36,150 bases of DNA, taken from assembly GCF_001646865.1 (NCBI RefSeq), contig NZ_LRRB01000117.1:1-36150 (forward strand). The letters run 5' to 3'. This stretch comes from Aldersonia kunmingensis (GTDB lineage: Bacteria; Actinomycetota; Actinomycetes; Mycobacteriales; Mycobacteriaceae). The notes beneath the pieces were generated by a model. That model was not told the DNA's origin and made no database searches. It worked only from the letters and a program-made list of their open reading frames with translations. Position 1 is the stretch's first letter. Every line of letters begins with the position of its first letter. Below, piece by piece: positions 15,862-31,153 of the stretch. A program made the translations under genes and the position numbers.

Positions 15862-15941
15862 GCCGTACACCCACCCCCTGTGGCAGACCCCACAGGAAGT
15901 TCACCCTCTGGCGATGCGTCACTCGGCTCCGGACCCGGCGG

Positions 15942-15947
15942 TAGGTT
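15942..15947 (+). promoter_or_regulatory. -10 box TAGGTT of a leaderless pepQ promoter
   Basis: TAGGTT ends seven bases before the ATG at 15955 and only one base before the in-frame ATG at 15949. The spacing supports 15955 as the leaderless start. The same hexamer precedes the gene at 1247. Confidence 0.55.
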
Positions 15948-15954
15948 GATGTTC

Positions 15955-17055
15955 ATGCCCGACGACCATCGCCGCCGCCGCCAAGCCCTGCGAGCGCTGC
16001 TGGCCGACCGAAATGCCGACGCGCTGCTGGTCACAAACCTGCTCAACGTTCGCTACCTCACCGGTTTCACCGGTTCCAACGCCGCGCTGCTTGTGGCGAC
16101 CGAGGACAGCGAGGACGAGGCTCGAACCATCATCAGTACCGATGGGCGGTATCTGACCCAGGTCGCGGAGCAGGTGCCGGACCTCAAAGCGGAGATCACG
16201 CGCGCGGTCGGGACCCGGCTGATCGAGCTCGCCGGAGGCAACGGCGCGCGCCGCCTCGGCTTCGAGAGCCATGTCGTCACCGTCGATCAGCACCGCGCCT
16301 ACGCAGATGCGGCCGGGAATATCGAACTGGTGCGGTTGCCGGGGCTGATCGAGCAGCTGCGAATGGTCAAGGATGAGCAGGAGGTCGCGCTCCTGCGCGG
16401 TGCGTGTGCCGCCGCCGACGCAGCGTTGAGCCAACTGATCGAGAACGGCGGGCTGCGGCCGGGACGGTCGGAACGTGAGGTCGCGCGCGAGTTGGAGTTC
16501 CTGATGCTCGAGCACGGCGCCGACGGCATTTCGTTCGAGACAATCGTCGCGGCCGGGTCGAACTCGGCGATTCCGCATCACCGCCCGACGGAAGCCGTCC
16601 TCGCGACGGGTGATTTCGTCAAGCTCGACTTCGGTGCGACGCTGCGCGGCTACCACTCCGATATGACCCGCACGTTCGTGCTCGAGACCGTGGCGGACTG
16701 GCAACGCGACGTGTACGAGCTCGTGGCTCGCGCGCAGGCGGCGGGCCGAGCGGCGCTGCGACCCGGTGCCGCGGTCGCCGAAGTCGACGCCGCCGCCCGC
16801 GATCTCATCGACGCCGCAGGCCACGGCGATCTGTTCCTGCACGGCCTCGGTCACGGGGTGGGGCTCGAGATCCACGAAGCGCCGGGAATCGGCAAGGCCG
16901 CGACCGGTACACTTCTTTCCGGCGCGGTCGTGACCGTGGAGCCCGGCGTGTACTTCTCCGGACGTGGAGGCGTTCGGATCGAGGACACACTCGTGGTGCG
17001 CGATGAGGGTCCCGAGCTGCTGACCCTCACCAGCAAGGAACTGACCGTCGTCTGA
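15955..17055 (+). CDS. pepQ: Xaa-Pro aminopeptidase/prolidase family M24 peptidase
   Basis: The predicted product has 366 residues. The N-terminal creatinase-like domain begins [26 protein letters not shown]. The C-terminal pita-bread M24B domain carries the dinuclear metal ligands: the first Asp in VKLDFGA, the second in HSDMTRTFV, His in [15 protein letters not shown], Glu in VTVEPGVY and the last Glu in [10 protein letters not shown]. It likely releases residues N-terminal to proline in cytoplasmic peptides. The start at 15955 is favoured by the -10 spacing and by alignment with the M. tuberculosis N-terminus; 15949 is also possible. It precedes efp by 34 bp, as in relatives. Confidence 0.94.
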
Positions 17056-17089
17056 GACGACAAAGACGAACGAAAGACAGGCAACTCAA

Positions 17090-17653
17090 GTGGCGGACAC
17101 CAGCGATTTCAAGAACGGCCTCGTGCTGAAGATCGACGGCAACCTTCAGCAGATCATCGAGTTTCAGCACGTGAAGCCGGGCAAGGGCCCCGCCTTCGTG
17201 CGCACCAAGCTGAAGAACGTGCTCTCCGGTAAGACCGTCGACAAGACCTTCAACGCCGGTGTGAAGGTGGAGACCGCCACCGTCGACCGCCGCGATATGA
17301 CCTACCTCTACCACGACGGCACGGACTACGTGTTCATGGACGGCGAGACCTTCGATCAGATCTCGGTCAGCGAGCAGGTCATCGGTGACGGTGCCCGCTT
17401 CCTGCTCGAGAACATGACCGTGCAGGTCGCGACCCACGAGGGCGCGCCGCTGTACGTGGAGCTGCCGGTGACGGTCGAGCTCGTGGTTCAGCACACCGAT
17501 CCGGGCCTGCAGGGCGATCGCTCGACCGGTGGCACCAAGCCAGCGACGCTCGAGACCGGCGCCGAGATCAACGTGCCACTGTTCATCAACACCGGCGACA
17601 AGCTGAAGGTCGACTCCCGCGACGGGAACTACCTCGGCCGCGTGAACAACTGA
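17090..17653 (+). CDS. efp: Elongation factor P
   Basis: The predicted product has 187 residues with the usual three beta-barrel domains. It binds the ribosome between the P and E sites and relieves stalling at polyproline. That is relevant here because neighbouring genes encode proline-rich proteins. The tip loop of domain I is KPGKGPAF, with Lys32 at the position that is modified in some bacteria. Later signatures are [24 protein letters not shown] and the domain III end [19 protein letters not shown]. The GTG start (ADTSDFKNG) is preceded by AGACAGG. nusB follows after 2 bp. Confidence 0.98.
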
Positions 17654-17655
17654 GC

Positions 17656-18192
17656 GTGCGGGACGAGGCTGCGAGAAACAAGGCGGAGGGACGCACGTTG
17701 TCGGGCACCCAGAAGAAGCTCGGCGCCCGGCACAAGGCGCGCAAGCGAGCTTGCGACCTCCTCTTCGAGGCCGAGGCGCGAGATATCGACCCGGCGGTGC
17801 TGGTCACCGAGCGGGTCGAGCTCGCGGCCGATGACGACACGATCCCGCGCGTTCAGCCGTACGCCGCGACGATTCTGAACGGCGTCGCCGACGACCTCGA
17901 CCGGATCGACAACACCATCGAGTCGTACCTGCAGGACTGGGCGCTGGACCGCCTACCCGCGGTCGACCGCGCGATCCTGCGCATCGCGGTCTGGGAGCTT
18001 TTCCACGCCACCGACGTTCCACCCGTTGTCGCGGTGGACGAGGCCGTCGAGCTGGCCAAGGAGCTGTCCACCGACGAGTCGCCAGGCTTCATCAACGGCG
18101 TGCTCGGACAGATCGTGCTCGTCGCGCCTCAGGTTCGTGCGGCTGCAGCGGCAACGCTGAGCGCGCCGGAAGCCCCGGACACCGCCGAGTAG
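17656..18192 (+). CDS. nusB: Transcription antitermination factor NusB
   Basis: The predicted product has 178 residues and is an all-helical RNA-binding protein. With NusE/S10 it binds boxA RNA in rRNA operon antitermination. Signatures are [21 protein letters not shown] (arginine-rich helix 1), [58 protein letters not shown] and FINGVLGQI. The N-terminal 25 residues ([18 protein letters not shown]) extend beyond the usual start, so translation could begin later, but the GTG at 17656 is 2 bp after efp. The C-terminal 20 residues are Ala-rich and variable. Confidence 0.95.
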
Positions 18193-23169: not shown

Positions 23170-23703
23170 CTATCGGATCTTCTCCGACAACCCCAACAGC
23201 ACCCACGCCGCCAAACTTTGCGCGTCACAAACCTGCCCACCCCGCACCATCGCCTCGAACTCCGCCCGCGAGAACCAAGCAGTCCGCATGTCCTGCTCGG
23301 TCTCCTCCCGCTCGTGCGGCCCCTCGACCAGTTCGGTCGCCAGGAACACAGATCCCCGCTGACTCGACATCCCCGGCGCGACGTCGATCTCGCCGAGCTT
23401 CTCCATCCGACCAGCCTGCAACCCTGTCTCCTCGCGCAGTTCACGCGCCGCCAACTCCGCGGGATCAACCTCCAAGCGATCCGGGGCGGTGCCCTGCGGG
23501 AACTCCCAGCGCCTCGCACCGACTGGGTAGCGGAATTGTTCGACCAGGTGCACTCGGCCGCCGTCGAGTGGGATGACCAGGGCGAAGTGGGGTTTGTCGA
23601 CCACACCGTAGATGCCCAGCGAGCCGTCGTCGCGGCGGACGTCGTCCTCGCGGACGGTCATCCACGGGTTCGCATATACCTCGCGTGAGCCGAGTGTCTC
23701 CAC
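23170..23703 (-). CDS. Nudix hydrolase (ADP-ribose pyrophosphatase-like)
   Basis: The predicted product has 177 residues. It begins with the ADPRase-type start VETLGSREVYANPWMTVREDDV and carries WEFPQGTAPDRLEVDPAELAARELREETGL. This is a Nudix box with the REL-EE-G core; it has two more residues than the strict 23-residue consensus, a variant common in relatives. It probably cleaves a nucleotide sugar or ADP-ribose type diphosphate. The GTG at 23703 is chosen because GGGAGG lies five bases upstream. It begins 10 bp after the serpin stop on the same strand, so the two form an operon. Confidence 0.9.
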   Translation of the reverse strand: METLGSREVYANPWMTVREDDVRRDDGSLGIYGVVDKPHFALVIPLDGGRVHLVEQFRYPVGARRWEFPQGTAPDRLEVDPAELAARELREETGLQAGRMEKLGEIDVAPGMSSQRGSVFLATELVEGPHEREETEQDMRTAWFSRAEFEAMVRGGQVCDAQSLAAWVLLGLSEKIR

Positions 23704-23713
23704 GCGTGCCTCC

Positions 23714-24802
23714 CTAAGCCCCGACCTGGCCGGCCACAACAACAAGCCCGCTCGGGCGATGCACGGCAATGAATCCGAATGGCGGCTCGAATTTCGCCTC
23801 GATGATCTTCACCCGCTTGAGCTTCGGGATGAAGGCGCCGGCGAGGCGCATCGCGAGCGCGGTCACCGCGGCGGCTTCGAAGCCCGTTGCCGAGAATTGC
23901 GCGTACACGTCCTGGGCGCCCTGGCTGATCGCCAGCGGCTCCGGGCTGATCGCGGGGAAGTGGCCATGGCTGTCATCCATCGCTGCCGCGAGGCCGAACA
24001 ACTCCGCATGCCTGCTCAAGTCATGGGACGAGCGAATAGTGAACGGCGGCAACGAGACTCGTAGCGAGTCGGCGTCCGCGGTGCCCGCGCGCACCTTCAG
24101 CCCCGGCGCACGCGTCCCATCCGTTAACTCGCTGCCAGCGCGCGCCGCAACTCCGCCAGCCAGCGCGGTGATGCCGACGCCGAGAGCGTCCACGCCCTGT
24201 ACCAAGTGCACATCGAGATCGTCCCGGCCCCGAACGATCATCCGGGTCACAGGCGACGGCGAATCCAATACGGCCACGTCATCCAAATCCGAGGTCGAGC
24301 GGTTCAGCACCTTCCCCTCGCCGAACGCGTCGACCCACTCCGTCTTCGCCGCGAGCGCGGTCGCTAAGACCATGACGTCACTAGGCCGGACCTGCAAAGG
24401 AAAGCGTTCGATCATGCCGCGCGTGTGCTCGGCCGCCCACTCGTCGAGCCGCGCCTGTCCAGCTAATTGCTCCAGCACGCCCGGGGGCAAAGCGGCGACC
24501 CATTCGTCGTGCAGCGGCAGGCCGGCGCGGACCCAGACGCCGAGTGCCGCCGACGTCGCACCCCCGCGGGACAGCAACTCCAGCACCTCGAGTGCAGCCT
24601 CCCGCCCGGTCTCGGCAGAAATCCCGCACGCCGCGGCCAGCTCTTCACGTGCCAAACCATCCGCGCTGGACGCCAGCAGCGCGAGTAGCGGCCAGAGTCC
24701 GGCCCCGGACAGCACGAACTCGCCGCTACCCGCGGCGGAACACCATCGCGCGGTCAGGTCGTTCGCGGCGGCAACGTGGGCGTCGGGCAATACATGGGAC
24801 AC
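23714..24802 (-). CDS. Serpin-family protein, apparently cytoplasmic
   Basis: The predicted product has 362 residues. Serpin features are FVLSGAGLWPLLALLASSADG near the N-terminus, VMVLATALAAKTEWVDAF (the NxxYFKGxW-like strand), SLPPFTIRSSHDL, and the C-terminal signature PPFGFIAVHRPSGLVVVAGQV. The reactive-centre hinge is readable as G307-F-E-A-A-A-V-T, with the small residues needed for loop insertion, so an inhibitory serpin is possible; Phe at P14 is atypical. No signal peptide is visible, so the protein should stay in the cytoplasm. The target protease is unknown. TATGGT 13 bases before the ATG is a plausible -10. The Nudix gene follows directly. Confidence 0.82.
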   Translation of the reverse strand: MSHVLPDAHVAAANDLTARWCSAAGSGEFVLSGAGLWPLLALLASSADGLAREELAAACGISAETGREAALEVLELLSRGGATSAALGVWVRAGLPLHDEWVAALPPGVLEQLAGQARLDEWAAEHTRGMIERFPLQVRPSDVMVLATALAAKTEWVDAFGEGKVLNRSTSDLDDVAVLDSPSPVTRMIVRGRDDLDVHLVQGVDALGVGITALAGGVAARAGSELTDGTRAPGLKVRAGTADADSLRVSLPPFTIRSSHDLSRHAELFGLAAAMDDSHGHFPAISPEPLAISQGAQDVYAQFSATGFEAAAVTALAMRLAGAFIPKLKRVKIIEAKFEPPFGFIAVHRPSGLVVVAGQVGA

Positions 24803-24855: not shown

Positions 24856-25161
24856 ATGAGCGAGCCAGGGGAGACCGGCCTGATCATCAGCGGTTGGATC
24901 CGCGTCGATTCGGCCGAGCGCGACGACTATGTGGCCGGTTGTGTCGAGGTGGTGCGTGCCGCGCGGGCAGCTCCTGGGTGCCTGGACTTCGCGATCGCCG
25001 CCGACATCGTCGATCCCGGCCGAATCACCGTCTACGAGCGGTGGACCGACGAAGCGTCGCTGATGGAGTTCCGGGGCTCGGGTCCGCCGGCCGAGCAGGA
25101 GTCCCAGATCCTCGATGCCGAAGTCCGGCGCTACGAGATCGGTGCTGTCGGCCCGGCGTGA
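24856..25161 (+). CDS. Antibiotic biosynthesis monooxygenase (ABM)-fold protein
   Basis: The predicted product has 101 residues. The pattern GLIISGWIRVDSAERDDYVAGCVEVVRAARAAPGCLDFAIAAD, then ITVYERWTDEASLMEFR, is the dimeric ferredoxin-like ABM/YgiN fold. Members oxidise quinones or polyketides or degrade haem; the substrate cannot be told here. The start is fixed by the leaderless promoter. Its last 31 bases overlap the end of the convergent DUF429 gene. Confidence 0.85.
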   Translation: MSEPGETGLIISGWIRVDSAERDDYVAGCVEVVRAARAAPGCLDFAIAADIVDPGRITVYERWTDEASLMEFRGSGPPAEQESQILDAEVRRYEIGAVGPA

Positions 25162-25883
25162 CCTACCAGGGCCGCCAGCGACCCGGATGGCACGTGCACC
25201 CAGCCCTCGCGCCGCGCCACCGCCAGTTCGTCAGGCTCGGGGCCATACGTCGCTCCGCACTCCACCGCCCGAGCCAGCAGTGCCGCGATCACCGCATCGA
25301 AGGCATCGTGCTGCTCGGTCACCAGCTCGACGAAAGAACCCAGATCGAGCCACGGCGCAGCTTCGCGAAGCGCCGCGACCATCCCGGTCAAGCCGACGGC
25401 GGTGGACTTGCCGCGAAACGGTAGTCCCCAGAGCTTCAGCCCCGCAACGGGATACACCTCGACCGCCCATCCGTCGGCGCGATTGGTGACCGCCAGTTGC
25501 TCGAGCAACCCCGCGCATCGCAGGGCGACGTGCCCGATCAGATCGGCCGACACGCTCAGCGGCATGAGCCCGGTCCGCTTCGCCACAACGAGGTCGGTAT
25601 GTCGTTTCGTCAGCGGCCGACGCTGCTCGCGCGTCTGCAAAGACACCGCGGGCGGATCGCCGCGGTGATGCGCGGTCACGAAGTCGACGAACGCATCCGG
25701 CCAGCCGAAGGGGGAGTCGATCCCGACGCGTGCCGCTCCAGCAGCGCAGGCGACAATATCGGCGTCGGACACATTCACCCGGACGTCGGTCAACCGCGCC
25801 GAACTCGCAGACCATTCGATCACCGCCAGCGCGGTACGCGCGGGTTCGGCGGCGAGGTCAACGCCGACGGTGTGAACTGTCAT
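25131..25883 (-). CDS. DUF429 protein (predicted RNase H-like nuclease)
   Basis: The predicted product has 250 residues. The N-terminus VGVDLAAEPARTALAVIEW gives the first acidic residue of an RNase H-like fold. GIDSPFGWPDAF, RHTDLVVAKRTG, VEVYPVAGLKLWGL and HDAFDAVIAALLARA are the typical DUF429 blocks, the last with paired acidic residues. Its activity is unproven in the family. The ATG overlaps the TetR stop (ATGA), so it is co-translated with that regulator. Its 3' end overlaps the convergent ABM gene by 31 bp. Confidence 0.85.
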   Translation of the reverse strand: MTVHTVGVDLAAEPARTALAVIEWSASSARLTDVRVNVSDADIVACAAGAARVGIDSPFGWPDAFVDFVTAHHRGDPPAVSLQTREQRRPLTKRHTDLVVAKRTGLMPLSVSADLIGHVALRCAGLLEQLAVTNRADGWAVEVYPVAGLKLWGLPFRGKSTAVGLTGMVAALREAAPWLDLGSFVELVTEQHDAFDAVIAALLARAVECGATYGPEPDELAVARREGWVHVPSGSLAALVGHAGPTAPIS

Positions 25884-29573: not shown

Positions 29574-30182
29574 ATGAGCGTGCCCGAGGAACGGGTGCCC
29601 CATCATCGCCGTCACGAGTCCGAGGCGGCGCGCGAACTGCTTTCTGCATCCGATGTTTCGCGCACGATTGCGCGCATCGCGCATCAGATCATCGAGAAGA
29701 CTGCGCTCGATTCGGATGATCCCAATACGCCGCGAGTCGTCCTCGTCGGCATTCCCACCCGCGGCAGCACGCTCGCCGTCCGGCTTGCCGACAAGATCGC
29801 CGAGTTCTCCGGCATCCGTCCCGCGGTCGGTTCTCTCGACATCACGCTCTATCGCGACGACTTGCGCACCAAGCCGCACCGACCCCTCGAGCGCACTTCG
29901 GTGCCCGAAGGCGGGGTCGAGGACGCGCTGGTCGTGCTCGTCGACGACGTCCTCTTCTCCGGTCGCTCCACCCGCGCCGCGCTCGACGCGCTGCGCGATC
30001 TCGGCCGCCCCCGCGCCGTGCAGCTCGCCGTCCTGGTCGACCGGGGCCACCGCGAACTGCCGATCCGCGCCGACTACGTCGGAAAGAACGTCCCGACCGC
30101 GCGCTCGGAAGACGTGTCCGTACTGCTGGTCGAACAGGATGGTGTCGACGGAGTGCAGTTGTTCCAGGGTGGTGCGCAATGA
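29574..30182 (+). CDS. pyrR: PyrR, pyrimidine operon regulator / uracil phosphoribosyltransferase
   Basis: The predicted product has 202 residues with a type I phosphoribosyltransferase fold. The PRPP loop is [36 protein letters not shown] and the [13 protein letters not shown] flap are typical of PyrR. It binds the pyr mRNA leader when UMP is high and may salvage uracil. The ATG at 29574 has an excellent AGAAGGAGGT ribosome binding site, which lies in the PyrR-binding loop. It is the first gene of the operon; its stop overlaps pyrB as ATGA. Confidence 0.96.
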
Positions 30183-31153
30183 GGCACCTGCTCTCGGTTA
30201 CCGATCTCGACCGCGCGAGCGCGACCGAACTGCTCGATGAGGCGGAGCGGTTCGAACAGGCGTTGCTCGGACGCGAGATTCGCAAGCTGCCGACGCTGCG
30301 TGGTCGCACCGTCATGACGGTGTTCTTCGAGAACTCGACCCGCACCCGCGTTTCGTTCGAGGTCGCCGGCAAGTGGATGAGCGCCGACGTCATCAATGTC
30401 AGCGCCAGCAGTTCGTCGGTGGCGAAGGGCGAGTCGCTGCGCGACACCGCGATGACCCTGCACGCGGCGGGTGCCGACGCGCTGATCGTGCGCCACCCGG
30501 CTTCCGGTGCGGCGCATCAGATCGCGAACTGGCTGGAGGCAGCGGCCGACAGGAGCGGAGCCCGCGGAGCGACCGATGGCTCGGTACCCGCGGTGATCAA
30601 TGCGGGCGACGGCACGCACGAGCATCCGACCCAGGCGCTGCTCGACGCGCTCACGCTACGGCAGCGGCTGGGCACTATCGAGGGCAAACGGATCGCGATC
30701 GTCGGCGACATCCTGCACAGCCGGGTCGCGCGTTCGAACGCGTTCCTGCTCGCCGAACTCGGCGCGGAGGTCGTGCTGGTCGCGCCGCAAACGCTGCTGC
30801 CGATCGGCGTCGAAAGCTGGCCGGTGCGCGTATCCCATTCGATCGACGCCGAACTGCCGGCCGCCGACGCGGTGCTGATGCTGCGAGTGCAGGCCGAACG
30901 GATGAACGGCGGGTTCTTCCCGTCCGCGCGCGAGTACTCGGTGAACTACGGCCTGTCCGAGCGGCGGATGGGGTTGCTGGCCGACCACGCCGTGGTCCTG
31001 CACCCGGGCCCGATGCTGCGCGGCATGGAAATCGCATCGGCGGTCGCCGATTCATCGAAGGCGGCTGTGCTGCAACAGGTTACGAATGGAGTGCACATGC
31101 GCATGGCTGTGCTGTTCACGCTGCTGGTCGGTACGGACGAGGCCGTCGCATGA
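30179..31153 (+). CDS. pyrB: Aspartate carbamoyltransferase catalytic subunit
   Basis: The predicted product has 324 residues. It joins carbamoyl phosphate and aspartate in the first committed step of pyrimidine synthesis. Carbamoyl-phosphate binding is shown by [24 protein letters not shown] and the [11 protein letters not shown] segment; [11 protein letters not shown] near the end binds substrates. No regulatory pyrI gene follows. Start and stop both overlap neighbours (ATGA each side), so it is tightly coupled to pyrR and pyrC. Confidence 0.98.

Follow-up and report, generated by a model that had tools for sequence, protein, structure and literature searches.

The serpin gene carried in a window of 36,150 nucleotides of Aldersonia kunmingensis DNA (the whole stretch analysed here: assembly GCF_001646865.1, contig NZ_LRRB01000117.1, positions 1 to 36,150 of the forward strand) belongs, as judged from its sequence and those of its relatives, to a distinct clade of Actinomycetia serpins, which we call the F class. 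Serpins are textbook metastable proteins, and their switch is considered to centre on the P14 and P17 residues of the hinge and on the shutter formed by Ser56, Asn186 and His334. A large clade that holds on to a near-invariant Ala-rich hinge but has the switch residues replaced would be evidence that the metastable state can also be kept and released by other means. Furthermore, a cytosolic compartment removes the usual extracellular explanations for serpins, and the F class makes the intracellular role of prokaryotic serpins directly testable in soil actinomycetes. With little better than even confidence, we read the window serpin as a putative suicide inhibitor of the cytosol whose switch for loop insertion has been rewired.

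The gene of this putatively cytosolic F-class serpin occupies positions 23714..24802 on the minus strand, opens with GTG, closes with TAG and encodes a protein of 362 amino acids that scores 67.9 bits (E 1.2e-18) with the Pfam family Serpin (PF00079), for which the cut-off is 27. Scored at the level of the genome, its agreement with the general serpin profile is modest, consisting of two stretches of 36 and 28.6 bits, and it is no chance match because 23 of 23 diverse relatives of the window serpin match PF00079 as well (E 0.001). A profile built from 23 members found PAI-1 as its best match among solved serpins (E 1.8e-26), again in two stretches (profile positions 19-168 and 263-389), and also matched conserpin, antitrypsin and 1sng, which we take to be thermopin of Thermobifida fusca. 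AlphaFold2, given an input of five sequences (the window protein and four named relatives), gave a mean pLDDT of 33.9, and the structural reading accordingly goes no further than the profile match to solved serpins. No other serpin was detected in the 5.6-Mb genome. Among named relatives, the serpin of Aldersonia sp. NBC_00410 comes closest, at 71% identity to the window serpin, and a scan of 84,980 species with the window protein, whose reach extends to close relatives only, retrieved five loci, all from Aldersonia and Nocardia.

For the wider comparison, searches ranging over the family, the order and the class yielded 191 matching frames, from which 153 distinct serpin domains of at least 280 amino acids were kept; loci entered the sample either as top matches to the window protein or from the two ends of the score range for PF00079, with many places of about 60 to 280 bits left out. 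These domains were split by P14 alone, Phe or Leu defining the F class (n = 102; Phe 100, Leu 2) and Thr or Val the canonical class (n = 51; Thr 48, Val 3), and the P14 counts are thus not independent, since P14 defined the classes. The tree, the shutter and the location were looked at after this split. A single branch with an SH-aLRT support of 99 divides 74 F-class from 30 canonical representatives (104 of the 153), with and without the hinge columns, in trees that were quick, for which the root was not inferred and in which three canonical rows are long-branched. Outside the class, 20 serpin places in 19 of the 34 matching genomes from other classes of the phylum, many with lipoprotein-like N-termini, have Thr (18), Ala (1) or Val (1) at P14 and Phe in none, so that in this sample of the phylum the F class is seen only in Actinomycetia.

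The two classes also differ in residues that had no part in defining them. Shutter positions are given in alpha-1-antitrypsin numbering, mapped by motifs. The canonical shutter set of Ser56, Asn186 and His334 is replaced in the window protein by Gly35 (24698..24700), Thr148 (24359..24361) and Gln297 (23912..23914), all on the minus strand. At position 56 all 102 F-class members have Gly, versus Ser in 46 of 51 canonical ones, and position 186 is Thr or Ser in 98 of 102 versus Asn in 48 of 51; at position 334 Gln is found in the entire F class (102/102), and the canonical class is divided between His (33/51) and Gln (18/51). In the hinge region, P17 Glu is absent from 99 of 102 F-class members, being retained in three, versus 51 of 51 canonical serpins that have it, and the window protein has Ala; P19 is Phe or Tyr throughout the F class (102/102) versus Val throughout the canonical class (51/51). 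The canonical Lys/Arg290 is replaced in about two thirds of the F class. Common to both classes are Trp194, P15 Gly and the alanines of P12-P10, which in the F class amount to 102 of 102 for P15 and to 100, 101 and 101 of 102 for P12 to P10, and P9 Val, found in 97 of 102 F-class members, is also found in 34 of 51 canonical ones. Several hinge variants are perhaps informative intermediates, namely L161, L142 and the loci L162-L164 (GFKSAAIT, GFRAAAGT and the P14-Val set GVEAAAVT).

The proximal hinge of the window serpin, G-F-E-A-A-A-V-T-A from P15 to P7, comprises residues 307-315 (23858..23884, minus strand), P14 being Phe308 with its codon at 23879-23881. The eight residues GFEAAAVT (307-314, first codon at 23884) had been called an inhibitory-type hinge in the earlier note; the motif is there and its Ala-rich part agrees with this description, but P14 Phe and P17 Ala do not fit the inhibitory consensus ExGTEAAAA for P17-P9, which almost all "hub" serpins are said to share (PMC8233489). 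Of 326 windows of this shape, the one made up of P15, P14 and P12-P7 varies least in the F class, with a mean entropy of 0.22 bits versus 1.90 overall; the same hinge window has 0.49 bits in the canonical class. The reactive centre loop region (residues 307-342; 23777..23884, minus strand) runs from Gly307 at P15 up to the distal PF motif and belongs to a long type: in 101 of the 102 F-class serpins this span measures 31-37 residues, versus 24-31 residues in 51 of 51 canonical ones. Along the loop, F-class variability stands at the 62nd percentile for P6, the 74th for P3, the 80th for P2 and the 70th for P2', with P1 at the 57th, P1' at the 56th, P5 at the 41st and P4 at the 48th, and among the 35 family members nearest to the window the entropy of P3 exceeds the 90th percentile. 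By the 17-residue rule P1 would be Ala321, the corresponding residue being Ala in 14, Gly in 11 and Thr in six of these 35; loop indels make the assignment of P1 uncertain, and hence no specificity is claimed.

Regarding the effect of such residues, hinge flexibility has been said to rest on an uncharged P14, and in a mite serpin Pro at P14, or Glu combined with a second change, strongly impaired the inhibition of chymotrypsin, Phe lying outside the set of changes described there (PMC3394726). Val at P9 may lower hinge flexibility, according to PMC12737784, and the residue changes considered from PMC3691886 are to Asp only.

That the serpin lacks a signal peptide and looks cytosolic, as the earlier note had proposed, is borne out by several observations. 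Upstream of its GTG lie 27 open codons without ATG, GTG or TTG, and with no in-frame start among them a signal peptide is excluded for the chosen gene model. Export signals are also absent from the window protein, and none was seen on reading the N-termini of 34 other members. These 34 represent our comparison set of other full-length family members, which show 44-71% identity to the window protein in the best tblastn segment and come from Nocardia and a few related genera; since genome G220 contributes two of them, the set includes at least one paralog. Across the larger sample, an export-signal scan, which is our own heuristic rather than SignalP and of whose canonical positives at least two (L162 and L163) look spurious, flagged none of 102 F-class members versus 43 of 51 canonical ones, 40 of the 51 having a lipobox. 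The frame stays open for less than 18 codons ahead of the start in 37 of the 102 F-class genes, and for those the negative result is independent of the choice of start. Among the fetched loci, at least 14 genomes hold both classes, their canonical serpins being mostly lipoproteins. In genomes of family f30 that also hold the F class, canonical serpins occur in close pairs or triples, most with lipoprotein signals (L105, L106, L108, L111, L112, L118, L119, L121, L125).

In the reading that we favour, an intracellular protease would cut the exposed loop; the Ala-rich hinge would then insert into the central sheet, and the protease would end covalently trapped by the serpin. This protease could be an endogenous one that is wrongly sorted or set free, or one that gains entry or is let loose when the cell lyses or comes under attack. 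A role against an internal protease is plausible. An invariant hinge next to a loop centre that varies to an average or high degree is what loop-inserting inhibitors show, and the Phe at P14 is at least uncharged, which also speaks for inhibition; what counts against it is that the loop centre is not hypervariable throughout, P5 and P4 lying below the median, and that with P14 Phe, P17 Ala and a replaced shutter the protein strays from the canonical inhibitory set. The frequent absence of the gene among Nocardia genomes and the lack of a matching protease among the candidates described below weigh on the same side. Extended to the entire clade, the proposal becomes tentative, and we give it somewhat less than even confidence: the F class may represent a second, cytosolic kind of serpin in Actinomycetia that is still inhibitory and whose switch has been rebuilt as a set, with aromatic residues at P19 and P14, no P17 Glu, and Gly56, Thr186 and Gln334. 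If this is true, some genomes would run surface lipoprotein serpins with the canonical switch and, in addition, intracellular ones with the new switch.

The same replacements can be turned into an argument for an F class that is not inhibitory, in which the fold would have been reused in the cytosol, for instance for binding or in a chaperone-like manner, and the altered breach and shutter would no longer support insertion: canonical P14 Thr, P17 Glu, Ser56 and Asn186 are all replaced, and so is Lys/Arg290 in about two thirds of the members. We regard this as rather unlikely, given that no window of the protein is more conserved than the Ala-rich hinge, whereas in the well-known non-inhibitory serpins the hinge is usually lost. 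A published suggestion points both ways: a non-inhibitory state has been proposed for a Streptomyces clade deviating in breach and shutter, many of whose serpins nevertheless keep the hinge motif (PMC8233489). An action outside the cell is less probable still, and we consider it improbable that the serpin works after lysis by shielding the released contents or the mycelium from proteases of a host, of a competitor or of the cell's own secretion. The carriers of the F class, which include Nocardia and, by plasmid records, Streptomyces, Kitasatospora and Embleya, are mycelial soil actinomycetes and would suit such a role, as would the presence of mostly lipoprotein canonical serpins beside F-class ones in the genomes with both; however, the absence of an export signal from all F-class members sampled stands against it, and nothing in the sequence points to release.

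Loci of family f29, which we take to be Streptomyces, fall in the F class. The closest published counterpart is a Streptomyces clade within Group U whose breach and shutter are not canonical and which is possibly non-inhibitory (PMC8233489, 2021). It resembles the F class in being actinobacterial, in its non-canonical breach and shutter and in often keeping the hinge motif; the section on it gives neither residues nor a location and mentions Streptomyces as the sole taxon, and the term "P14" is absent from the main text (PMC8233489). This Streptomyces clade is probably part of the F class, the two having been set beside each other by description. The Streptomyces branch had already been partly noticed, and it is extended here across Actinomycetia as a clade without export signals and with a coherent set of residues. 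In the open-licence PMC literature on bacterial and actinobacterial serpins, the P14 hinge and thermopin, we found no description of a cytosolic clade with P14 Phe. The canonical serpins of our own sample share the family profile and the Ala-rich hinge with the F class and differ in P17 Glu, P14 Thr or Val, the lipobox and the shorter loop; thermopin (Thermobifida fusca) belongs to the serpin family by profile, as the F class does, and the residue differences attributed to it rest on the canonical class of the sample. An intracellular function has been considered before. Control of intracellular proteases or housekeeping has been proposed for Pnserpin, Tkserpin and the "hub" prokaryotic serpins, as for the F class (PMC8233489; PMC5297747), but the ExGTEAAAA motif present in almost all "hub" serpins is missing from the F class (PMC8233489). 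For chloropin of Chlorobium limicola, the authors likewise discuss an intracellular role against endogenous proteases, and this serpin, which we set beside the F class by description, is reported to have the canonical inhibitory conformation and an inhibition accelerated by DNA and heparin (PMC10090351).

Downstream of the serpin lies a gene for a Nudix hydrolase of 177 amino acids with a GTG start (23170..23703, minus strand), which matches PF00293 with 41.5 bits against a cut-off of 21.1 and contains a Nudix box by a pattern of relaxed spacing. Its nearest solved relative is the ADP-ribose pyrophosphatase 1mk1 (E 6.8e-22), but the window protein falls below the NCBIfam equivalog cut-offs, with 47.5 versus 169 bits for NudE and 25.4 versus 248 for ADP-ribose diphosphatase. 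Between the TAG of the serpin and the GTG of the Nudix gene there is a gap of 10 bp (23704..23713, minus strand) containing GGAGG, confirming by coordinates the spacing given in the earlier note, and the two genes are probably co-transcribed in A. kunmingensis. It had further been suggested that serpin and Nudix hydrolase make up a stress or damage-control module, an idea that the lack of a conserved pairing among relatives would refute, and the 10-bp spacing with GGAGG ahead of the Nudix start is what speaks for it. In the neighbourhood survey, however, a scan for the Nudix box with relaxed spacing, covering about 1.5 kb on either side, extended to as much as about 9 kb in 24 wide loci, found none adjoining the serpin in the 34 other members or in 21 further clade loci, the lone distant match to the pattern, 4.1 kb off in L051, reading like a P-loop protein. 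Searching 29 of the 34 loci by tblastn with the window Nudix protein likewise found it adjacent in none. The sister Aldersonia does have an ortholog of the Nudix gene (87% identical), but about 5.5 kb downstream of the serpin, from which it is separated by genes that read, from sequence, as acyl-CoA ligase-like, PhaC-like and alpha/beta hydrolase-like. The pairing is thus local, the module idea fails the test of conserved pairing that came with it, and no such stress or damage-control partner turned up in the neighbourhoods. We therefore consider a functional module very improbable; the Nudix gene looks like a bystander by position in A. kunmingensis and not like a conserved partner.

A gene for an ABM-domain monooxygenase-like protein (24856..25161, plus strand) diverges from the serpin with 53 bp between the start codons, and it adjoins the serpin in the sister Aldersonia too; a DUF429 gene follows (25131..25883, minus strand), and among the loci searched by tblastn it stands beside the serpin and the ABM gene in the two Aldersonia only. 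The interval that contains them is bordered on one side by pepQ-like (M24 peptidase), efp and nusB genes (15880..18192, plus strand; named from Pfam matches of homologs) and on the other by pyrR-like and pyrB genes (29574..31153, plus strand), of which the former is named from the phosphoribosyltransferase domain of a homolog and from its position, and the latter from position and length. At least one of the two housekeeping blocks, pepQ-efp-nusB or pyrR, is near the serpin in 16 of 21 other neighbourhoods with wide flanks, which makes the serpin look like a long-standing occupant of a single chromosomal interval that has no recurrent partner. In family f30, represented by 17 loci, clade members lie instead near genes that read, from sequence alone, as dTMP kinase (16), a DNA polymerase III subunit (15) and topoisomerase I, the last of which is near the serpin in eight loci, including one (L061) in the window's own family. 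No conserved partner recurs across families in the neighbourhoods read, the repeated neighbours being local chromosomal genes.

Within Nocardia, a serpin match of at least 240 bits is present in 65 of 118 genomes, and six more have weaker or partial matches only, which suggests that the serpin is dispensable and has decayed in some Nocardia lines. Truncated or fragmentary F-class genes with signs of loss can be seen in this genus at L009:5980-6681, G1014:C4:291548-291987 and G1048:C2:4631899-4632195. Carriage by mobile elements was considered and rejected: no phage record carrying the gene turned up, viral contigs gave no match with either the window protein or the 23-member alignment, and only six of 72,556 plasmid records hold an F-class serpin, three from Streptomyces, two from Embleya and one from Kitasatospora.

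Candidate targets were sought in the A. kunmingensis genome among the families Trypsin_2, Peptidase_S8 and Trypsin. This gave nine distinct protease genes. Judged by N-terminus and hydrophobic segments, two of them, a subtilase and an HtrA-type protease, read as soluble and cytosolic, and each of the remaining seven shows either a signal-like N-terminus or a membrane segment, in the case of L201 only by eye and below the threshold. The signal-less subtilase, located at L199:411-1622 (G000:C25), has intact D-H-S motifs. Its orthologs (E 1e-50) were found in one of 118 Nocardia genomes, and the subtilase was rejected on this ground as a dedicated target of the clade. The HtrA-type protease (E 1e-60) is found in 65 of 118 and was rejected as well for lack of co-distribution with the serpin, 38 genomes having both, 27 the serpin only, 27 the protease only and 26 neither (Fisher p 0.46, kinship ignored). 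Across these 118 genomes, neither of the two candidates thus emerged as the target protease.

Besides the single-copy arrangement of A. kunmingensis, F-class serpins occur in tandem, as two or three genes with differing reactive loops, at L083:247-3877 and also at L081, L087, L095 and L097, in genus g64, presumably Salinispora, with genomes of about 5-6 Mb. Some members are extended beyond the serpin domain. In Nocardia, five of them (L018, L023, L024, L025 and L029) carry a Pro-rich C-terminal tail of 102-124 residues with 21-41% Pro after the domain, and at L056 (G249) the serpin frame continues into a helix-turn-helix-like region, which may represent either a natural fusion or a lost stop codon.
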